A DNA stretch of 40,202 nucleotides from Verrucomicrobiota bacterium (GTDB lineage Bacteria; Verrucomicrobiota; Verrucomicrobiia; Verrucomicrobiales; DEV007), in contig DAOUQC010000042.1 of the NCBI GenBank assembly GCA_030625775.1, positions 1 through 40,202 on the forward strand. Direction: 5' to 3'. Position numbers and translations under genes: made by a program. Numbering within the stretch: the stretch's first letter is position 1; each line of letters opens with the position of its first letter. Positions 19,380 through 20,942 of this stretch are shown here, one piece after another. The notes under the pieces were generated by a model. That model did not search any database, had not been told where the DNA came from, and saw nothing but the letters and a program-made list of their open reading frames with translations.

Positions 19380-20942
19380 ATGCGAGAAGATGCTTCCCGC
19401 ATCCGTTCTGGCGCGGATGAGGGATACGATGCGCATGAAAAACCTTTCCTCGATCACTTGGAAGATCTTAGGAAAACGCTGGGGAAAATCATCATCACTT
19501 TGTTGGTTACGACCATCATTGCTTTTGCCTTCAACATGCAGATCATGCAATTTGTCGGGCAACCCATGAAACTTGCAGGACTCGGCAACAGTGTCACCTT
19601 CATGACCCTCGCGCCGCAAGAGATCCTGATGCTCTCGATTAAAGTGTCTTTTTTTGCAGGCTTGCTCGGTGCCTTCCCTTTATTGATGTTTTTTGCAGGC
19701 GAATTCATCCTGCCCGGTCTTCGCGAGCAGGAGAAACGCTTTGTTTTACCCGGCATCGGAGCTGGTTTTTTCCTCTTCACCACAGGCGCCGCTTTTGCTT
19801 TTTATATGGCCTGTCCCATCGCCCTGAACTTCTTCTTCGAATTCCAAAAAGAGCGAACTGAATTTCTCAACCCCACAACAATGATCAGTGATGGAAGCAT
19901 CAGTGTCGAAGATCTGATTTCTGCTGATTCTACAACAGAAGCCCTGAAAAAATCAGCCTCTGCAGTTCCCGAAACCGCTACTACCCCGGTAGATCCTAAA
20001 CTTCGCGCCCAAGTGATCGAGGTCCTTCGGGATTCTTTAGCGATCAGTGCAGATTCCGAGTTGCATATCACCTTTGATGACACTTCGAAAAAACTGATCC
20101 TCTCCACCTCTCCCATCCAAAAAACTACCTATCAGTATGGAAAGTATATCAACTTCGTCACCCGTCTGGTGCTTGTCTTTGGACTGGCATTCCAGCTGCC
20201 GGTAGTCGTTACCATTCTGGTCAAACTCGAGCTGCTCACCGCACGTGTCATGCGCACCACGCGGCCGATGGCCTGGATTGTCATGTTGATTCTGTCAGCC
20301 GTTTTCACCCCACCCGATATCATGACGCTCGGCCTGCTCGCCGGACCGCTCATCATCCTATACGAAATCTGCATTTGGATTGCCTGGTTCATCGAGACCC
20401 AACGGGAAAAAGCCAAGCGAACCGAAGAGGACGAACGTCAACTGCGTCTGGGTGAACTCTATGCCAAATCTGCTGAAGACCTCAGCGAAGAAGAAAAAGC
20501 AGAGCTGCACGCCCACGAAGTCGCCCAGTACGAAGCCGAGCACCCGGATCAAGGCGATGATCCCGGCCATGCAGGTTATGATGACGCAGAAGAAAACGCA
20601 CAGGGTGAACACGATGACAGTTGGCACGACGACCAACACGAATACCACGAGGACGAAGAGCACTACAATCAACATCACTACGGTGCCGACGCACCAACGG
20701 ACGGCTGGTCAGATCACGAGCACAGTGATGGTGAACACGGTGAGTGTGAACCAAGCGGTTCAATCATCAATCTGAACACAGCGAGTTTGGAAGAACTTCA
20801 AACTCTGCCTGGTGTCGGACCCGCGCTGGCCCAGCGCCTGATCAATCATCGGCCATTTGGCAATTTTGATGATGTATTGGGTGTGCCCGGCATCAGTGAA
20901 GACAAACTCAACCGTGTAATCGACCGGCTGGTCATTGAGTAA
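19380..20942 (+). CDS. tatC: TatC translocase subunit fused to His-rich tail and helix-hairpin-helix domain
   Basis: Core subunit of the twin-arginine export system. From the ATG at 19380 it has 520 aa, about twice the normal 250; a GTG at 19341 would add 13 residues. FLDHLEDLRKTLGK, TLAPQEILMLSIKVS, GEFILPGLREQEKRF, FGLAFQLPVV and FTPPDIMTLGLLAGP are TatC hallmarks across six membrane segments. The Glu often found in FGxAFE is Gln272. Three additions stand out. (1) Residues of about 159-249, in the periplasmic loop between TM3 and TM4, are an insert. (2) Residues of about 374-456 are rich in His, Asp and Glu (about 14 His). (3) Residues 463-520 form a ComEA-like helix-hairpin-helix domain, with INLNTASLEELQTLPGVG and FDDVLGVPGISEDKL. 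With N-in/C-in topology, the last two should be cytoplasmic. No tatA was seen nearby. Confidence 0.93.
   Translation: MREDASRIRSGADEGYDAHEKPFLDHLEDLRKTLGKIIITLLVTTIIAFAFNMQIMQFVGQPMKLAGLGNSVTFMTLAPQEILMLSIKVSFFAGLLGAFPLLMFFAGEFILPGLREQEKRFVLPGIGAGFFLFTTGAAFAFYMACPIALNFFFEFQKERTEFLNPTTMISDGSISVEDLISADSTTEALKKSASAVPETATTPVDPKLRAQVIEVLRDSLAISADSELHITFDDTSKKLILSTSPIQKTTYQYGKYINFVTRLVLVFGLAFQLPVVVTILVKLELLTARVMRTTRPMAWIVMLILSAVFTPPDIMTLGLLAGPLIILYEICIWIAWFIETQREKAKRTEEDERQLRLGELYAKSAEDLSEEEKAELHAHEVAQYEAEHPDQGDDPGHAGYDDAEENAQGEHDDSWHDDQHEYHEDEEHYNQHHYGADAPTDGWSDHEHSDGEHGECEPSGSIINLNTASLEELQTLPGVGPALAQRLINHRPFGNFDDVLGVPGISEDKLNRVIDRLVIE

Follow-up and report, generated by a model that had tools for sequence, protein, structure and literature searches.

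A clade-specific helix-hairpin-helix domain at the C-terminus of the TatC protein in Verrucomicrobiota

Receptors of the Tat pathway are usually viewed as a minimal membrane core, as stated in the available part of a review (PMC13186574). According to the accessible portion of PMC13323110, TatC is known as a trimer from structures of the E. coli, Nitratifractor, and Myxococcus proteins, and large periplasmic inserts are already known for the latter two genera. The insert of M. xanthus TatC, which is found between TM3 and TM4, that is, at the same place as in the protein described below, folds as a homotrimer, while that of N. salsuginis TatC is disordered and unrelated to it; an insert by itself is, therefore, no novelty. 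In the available text of the TatC survey PMC3827258, the terms "C-terminal," "extension," and "fusion" are not mentioned, and a search of the open-access literature, judged on titles and abstracts, returned no report of a helix-hairpin-helix (HhH) or His-rich extension of TatC. As for ComEA, the available parts of PMC3879209 and PMC9747964 assign importance in DNA binding and transformation to K62/K63 and the hairpin glycine G60 of the V. cholerae protein and to K164 of the B. subtilis protein; K63 and K164 are needed for function, and the exchange G60E renders V. cholerae ComEA non-functional.

The window, that is, the whole analysed stretch of 40,202 nucleotides, contains the only tatC gene of its genome (158 contigs, 4.88 Mb), the features of which are compiled in Table 1. 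The encoded protein matches Pfam PF00902 in two stretches with 178.9 bits at a cut-off of 25.1 (E 1.5e-52) and TIGR00945 with 155.1 at a cut-off of 132.7. AlphaFold2, with an input of 55 sequences from the window and the collected loci, predicts six long membrane helices, for which a TM-score of 0.85 on 4b4a, by target length, was obtained. In a Foldseek comparison of the whole protein with the PDB, TatC structures come out on top (4b4a, E 1.7e-9), with 9e03 of M. xanthus on rank 7. The complete Tat core that the original prediction had described is thereby confirmed. Apart from its additions, the protein is the usual TatC receptor, present once in the genome, and it would be expected to export twin-arginine substrates. 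The additions are indeed fused in a single frame, as had been claimed, since neither a stop nor a frameshift was found anywhere in the gene. An assembly join or frameshift as the origin of the fusion is ruled out by the intact frame and by the recurrence of the same architecture in genomes of the family; in two relatives (G061, G118), tatC is split, but at contig ends.

Table 1: Position and basis of the features of the tatC gene in the window.
Feature	Coordinates	Strand	Remarks
tatC	19380..20942	+	520 aa; one unbroken frame, ATG start 19380, TAA stop 20940-20942
TatC core TM1-TM3, residues 23-163	19446..19868	+	Pfam TatC 25-161; AlphaFold2 helices 23-50, 79-113, 116-163
Insert, second periplasmic loop TM3/TM4, residues 161-249	19860..20126	+	AlphaFold2: helix and beta-hairpin, low to medium confidence
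TatC core TM4-TM6, residues 250-345	20127..20414	+	Pfam, AlphaFold2
Predicted cytoplasmic tail, residues 346-458	20415..20753	+	Charged helix to ~387, then disordered acidic/His-rich tether
C-x-P-x-G element, C456 to G460, directly before HhH	20745..20759	+	Pattern in main-clade tails
C-terminal HhH, HHH_3 type, two hairpins, residues 459-520	20754..20939	+	Pfam HHH_3, AlphaFold2, Foldseek

The insert, estimated at about 90 residues in the original prediction, measures 89. With regard to the tail, the approximately 14 His residues among Asp and Glu were counted correctly, but the length of about 80 residues was too short; about 114 residues separate the end of TM6 from the HhH, with the 14 His residues falling within the last 89 of them. 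The single Cys adjoining the HhH was absent from that description. Residues 345-458 contain 14 His, 39 Asp/Glu, and 6 Lys/Arg, and residues 390-458 contain 11 His, 25 Asp/Glu, and no Lys/Arg. The structure prediction of the tail that had been proposed as a check, run with AlphaFold2, yields low confidence (pLDDT <50) for the tether at residues 396-456, which is followed by a confidently predicted HhH fold at residues 461-520 (pLDDT 93-98). The family HHH_3 (PF12836) is recognized at residues 462-516 with 50.2 bits at a cut-off of 27 (E 2.8e-13). The nearest solved fold, according to Foldseek against the PDB, is 2duy, which is titled ComEA-related (rmsd 0.8, 46% identity), followed by chains of PsbU. 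Pfam PsbU (PF06514) is also passed on the HhH (31.3 bits, cut-off 24.5), while the scores remain below the cut-offs of the PsbU equivalog NF002708 of NCBIfam (32.6 versus 85) and of the ComEA equivalog and subfamily models TIGR01259 (38.1 versus 152.35) and TIGR00426 (36.5 versus 53.1). From the known topology of TatC and the Lys/Arg residues just after TM6 it follows that the HhH, being C-terminal to TM6, would reside on the cytoplasmic side, as opposed to the periplasmic or extracellular location of ComEA.

Within the family of the window genome (f1; 74 genomes), TatC was found in 66 genomes, and 44 of these carry the HhH on TatC. In 42 genomes both parts are encoded in one frame, and in G061 and G118 the TatC frame runs off its contig and an HhH fragment with a matching tail opens another contig. 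The remaining 22 genomes comprise 21 with a complete TatC frame devoid of HhH and one (G511) with a frame cut by a contig end. Of 18 genera, eight are HhH-bearing (g1, g2, g3, g4, g8, g9, g10, g14). Thus, the domain search over related TatC proteins that had been proposed finds the fusion in 44 of 66 genomes, and the doubt raised at the time, namely that most related TatC genes might stop after helix six, is not borne out inside the family. In trees calculated from the core columns only, a single branch separates all HhH rows from the others, both in a quick tree (43 of 107 rows, SH-aLRT 96) and in a careful one (41 of 62 rows, bootstrap 99, SH-aLRT 94). Truncated TatC frames were omitted, except for L003 and L032, which were labelled as HhH-bearing on account of an HhH end that opens another contig of the same genome (L139 and L140); L006 (G138), whose 5′ end is missing, contributes to the 42 but does not appear in the trees. 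Inside the HhH clade, the domain is present in 43 of 43 complete tails from eight genera. Residues conserved across the clade include, in alignment numbering, His30, Asp37, and Asp38 as well as D/E-R-L/I-M-L-G at the C-terminus. In the quick tree, the sister clade has tails in which a similar DPYHYDHGYHDDGYYSGP stretch leads into a terminal helix, charged and leucine-spaced, of the EELKTELKAELKAEL type; this helix with its ELK repeats occupies the position of the HhH and is preceded by a similar His/acidic tether. The charged-helix type is encoded at L146, L151, L154, L160, and further loci from genera g6, g11, g13, and g226-g228, and the TatC tail of L056 is also of this type. The TatC tail encoded at L153:2308-3924 (G497, genus g225) terminates with a stretch that resembles SAP, its match to Pfam SAP_new25 (E 0.012) lying below the cut-off.

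Outside the family, 34 frames from f2, f3, f4, f6, Opitutaceae, unclassified, and other named records were devoid of HhH in their TatC tails. A sample of 387 Verrucomicrobiota genomes, in which the family is represented by the window's own genome, contained TatC and HhH in one frame only in that genome, as judged from 67 of 84 HhH rows at E up to 1e-8, the other 17 being frames of 120-353 aa. A search of genome contigs returned 19 relatives. The TatC-HhH fusion is real, clade-specific, and conserved.

The three additions, which the original prediction had treated as one package, differ in phylogenetic age, the long acidic tail being the most widespread, the HhH being confined to one clade, and the insert to a part of that clade. 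Long acidic tails occur in f1, f2, f3, f4, and f6, with medians of 20-36% for Asp+Glu and of 77-169 for length, and TatC tails of Opitutaceae end about 10 residues past TM6 (9 of 9 rows, median 10) and contain 30% Lys+Arg; L075, L084, and L159, in which the end of TM6 was not recognized, are not included in these compositions. Among the HhH genomes, those of g3 and g10 excepted, the Pfam hit to TatC falls into two pieces; in the non-HhH genomes it is continuous. Because the split is not shared by g3 and g10, the insert would be younger than the HhH or would have been gained beside it.

It might be argued that the HhH came by gene fusion and has since been tolerated as a functionless appendage of the exporter, as would be compatible with the wide variation of the tails in length and sequence and with the loss of a hairpin glycine in 9 of the 43 HhH domains. 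Comparison with the two nearest relatives, L004 and L139, argues against this. The pN/pS values for the HhH are 0.122 and 0.157, respectively, close to those for the membrane core (TM1-3, 0.130 and 0.037; TM4-6, 0.085 and 0.056), while values of 0.377, 0.167, and 0.191 were obtained for the tail and 0.362 and 0.174 for the insert; since synonymous differences are near saturation (pS 0.52-0.75), all of these serve as ordering values rather than as precise rates. On this basis, the HhH is under purifying selection about as strict as that on the membrane core. In addition, it is retained in every one of the 43 clade rows across eight genera, and its fold is predicted to survive the loss of the hairpin glycine; the HhH of L138, with GVDD instead of GVGP, is modelled as compact, helical, and HhH-like (mean pLDDT 86). 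A passive appendage is, consequently, very unlikely.

The HhH is a domain type best known for DNA binding, and a DNA-binding role with a possible link to the nucleoid had been proposed for the window protein. The domain would then keep DNA or RNA near the exporter and, thus, tether the Tat system to the nucleoid or to transcripts. Such a role could be supported by the HHH_3 family match, by the ComEA-related protein 2duy as the nearest solved fold, and by the retention of both hairpin glycines (full G-h-G) in 34 of 43 TatC-HhH domains; in other HhH proteins, this hairpin contacts DNA via backbone nitrogens. The weak SAP-like end of the non-HhH relative L153 might be added, and a local basic patch would be compatible with a negative net charge. 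The net charge over the shared columns, however, averages -5.8 in the TatC-HhH domains (n=43, range -13 to -1) versus 0.0 in controls (n=29, range -3 to 3); the p-value of this difference, 3e-11, overstates the evidence because the sequences compared are related, and it does not count as independent evidence. The controls are those HhH domains of the phylum sample that match the TatC-HhH profile best, and they are themselves only candidate DNA binders. At the position of K63/K164, the 43 distinct TatC-HhH domains contain Leu (as in the window), Met, Ile, or Asp, and Lys or Arg in no case. Among the 29 controls, Lys is likewise never found at this position and Arg once, which makes the lysine a weak discriminator. 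The K62 position is occupied by Lys in 21 of the 43 domains and by Ala in the window. The second hairpin Gly, corresponding to G60 and, hence, to the site where G60E inactivates V. cholerae ComEA according to the parts of the sources cited above, is replaced by Asp, Glu, or Asn in 9 of the 43 domains and in none of the 29 controls. Furthermore, the acidic tether would repel nucleic acid, and in the sister clade a charged helix takes the place of the HhH. Taken together, DNA binding by the TatC-HhH is disfavoured, and neither it nor the proposed nucleoid link is supported by these sequence comparisons; a tether to nucleic acid of either kind is unlikely, and annotation as a ComEA-like, DNA-binding HhH would mislead here. 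The window genome encodes a second HHH_3 protein (L093:1204-1746; G000 contig 48) of 180 aa with an apparent N-terminal signal sequence, which is very Lys-rich and, therefore, a better DNA-binding candidate than the TatC domain.

A different function could be sought in the tail itself, where the His/Asp/Glu tether together with the conserved Cys would bind Zn, Ni, or Cu at the Tat receptor, either buffering the metal for folded metalloprotein substrates or sensing their metal loading, with the HhH serving as a hook or cap. Besides the abundance of His and acidic residues given above for residues 345-458, this is in line with the presence of C-x-[PA]-x-G before the HhH in all 37 main-clade tails examined and of a Fur-family gene three genes upstream of tatC in the window. 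The same 37 tails share the blocks DESW (29), HDESWH (20), SDH[AV] (28), and DPYH (13); with blocks that are partly conserved, the tether is not of pure low complexity. The median His content, which is high in the tails of the HhH clade (11.2%, 39 rows) and of f3 (8.0%), is not a general trait, since the equally acidic tails of f4 and f6 have 0% and 1.2%; thus, acidity, not His, is what is shared. The order and spacing of the His blocks vary, moreover, and in none of the 29 genomes of genus g2 was tatC found near argH. Metal binding by the tail is possible, with a charge or pH role also being a candidate, and a metal function at the receptor remains a doubtful proposition.

In the window, a Fur-family regulator, argH, a NUDIX gene, tatC, and lysS are arranged in this order on one strand. 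A tblastn search with the ArgH protein of the window placed argH ahead of tatC, both on one strand, in 34 of the 37 family genomes that do not belong to g2, in 8 of 9 of f3, and in 8 of 9 of f4. No such arrangement was seen in g2 (0 of 29 genomes), f2 (0 of 7), f6 (0 of 3), or the other records (0 of 14), where absence carries little weight because the stretches searched are of unequal length. The loci L141, L161, and L163-L165 of genus g2 are examples of tatC without an argH neighbour, unlike in the rest of the family. The preserved order speaks for a vertically inherited locus in f1, f3, and f4, and a mobile or recently acquired tatC is not favoured, given that this order is kept in f1 outside g2 as well as in f3 and f4. 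A functional partner for TatC is not indicated by the conserved neighbourhood in the argH-tatC comparison.

The window genome contains one TatA hit, on another contig, with a frame of 102 aa and an acidic end; a second row of 12.4 bits is noise. TatA sequences were read at 30 loci. Tandem genes of the TatA/B family are present in most non-HhH genomes of the family, and single ones in the majority of HhH genomes and of the remaining genomes of the order. A hand count restricted to TatA-positive family genomes gives two hits in 15 of 16 non-HhH genomes versus one in 33 of 42 HhH genomes; the only non-HhH genome with a single TatA is G497, to which L153 belongs. This distribution needs seven changes on the careful tree, compared with a mean of 19.0 in shuffles, and it could mean that tail and HhH took over the work of a second TatA/B-family protein and permitted its loss. 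Against this, a single TatA hit is found in 92 of the 97 TatA-positive genomes that the order sample contains beyond the family, and the TatC tails inspected there carry no HhH; hence, having one TatA does not depend on the HhH. The second TatA copy looks instead like a gain inside the family, two TatA are kept in nine HhH genomes, and the pattern rests on few events among related genomes. Such a substitution is, therefore, hardly to be expected. For comparison, the available part of PMC3827258 lists four genomes of Verrucomicrobia in which TatC lies apart and two TatA are present, while most of the order sample used here has one.

The most economical reading of the HhH is that of a module for protein docking which the Tat receptor carries on a flexible tether; we assign to this reading a probability of roughly one half. 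It takes up the last option of the original prediction, in which the tail was considered as a protein interface, and the evidence favours such an interface over DNA. It is consistent with the invariable presence of the domain in its one clade under purifying selection, with a predicted fold that persists without the hairpin motif, with the acidic character of the domains, and with the charged helix found at the same position in the sister clade. It also agrees with the occurrence of PsbU among the neighbours in sequence and fold; PsbU is an extrinsic subunit of photosystem II and, thus, of a protein complex. On the other hand, the closest solved HhH in both respects is the ComEA-related 2duy and not PsbU, the full G-h-G hairpin persists in 34 of 43 domains, and the missing ComEA lysine is missing in the 29 controls, too.

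In one Verrucomicrobiota clade, TatC has gained a small HhH at the end of a long, flexible, acidic/His-rich tether that is predicted to be cytoplasmic. According to the scenario of protein docking, and given the trimeric state of TatC, three HhH modules per core complex would be exposed to the cytoplasm, where folded substrates, chaperones, and TatA arrive. The HhH would most likely bind protein, be it itself, a Tat component, a substrate, or a chaperone, and bound partners would be docked or retained at the receptor. The tether would give reach, and its His residues may add a metal- or pH-sensitive element; the sister clade would dock likewise through its terminal charged helix. More tentatively, and with rather less than even odds, the three acidic HhH modules of a TatC trimer might, on metal- or pH-responsive tethers, capture a specific partner such as a chaperone, a cargo protein, or TatA and thereby add a selection step to export, with the helix serving the same end in the sister clade. 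If this were true, it would be a step in Tat export that is not described for other Tat systems. A conserved, folded TatC module predicted on the cytoplasmic side would provide a handle on the way in which substrates, once folded or matured, encounter the receptor.

Summarizing the relation to known systems, the window protein shares the six-helix core with the TatC proteins of known structure (4b4a, 4hts, 9dzz, 9e02, 9e03) and adds to it the P2 insert, the acidic/His tether, and the HhH. The closest counterpart of its insert is that of M. xanthus TatC (9e03), likewise located between TM3 and TM4 but comprising about 160 residues instead of 89, the two being likened by position; an HhH tail is a feature of the window protein and is not described for M. 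xanthus TatC in the available part of PMC13323110. With ComEA and ComEA-related proteins (8dfk, 8dss, 2duy), the double HhH without connector helix is common to both, whereas ComEA is extracytoplasmic and has the DNA-binding lysine, and the HhH of the window protein is acidic, lacks this lysine, and would be cytoplasmic. PsbU has the HhH fold in a different protein, location, and context. Outside TatC, the closest HhH sequences of the phylum sample belong to exported proteins (for example, L102, L105, L110) which we take to be nuclease-like because of an N-terminal GDGDSF/GDADSF-like motif recognized by eye. This arrangement of a signal-like N-terminus, the GDGDSF/GDADSF motif, and a C-terminal HhH is found in many Verrucomicrobiota (L096, L101, L102, L105, L110, L119, L122, and others). 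Compared with the TatC-HhH, the HhH domains of these nuclease-like proteins are neutral to basic, retain the second hairpin Gly in 29 of 29 cases, and are not attached to a membrane core.
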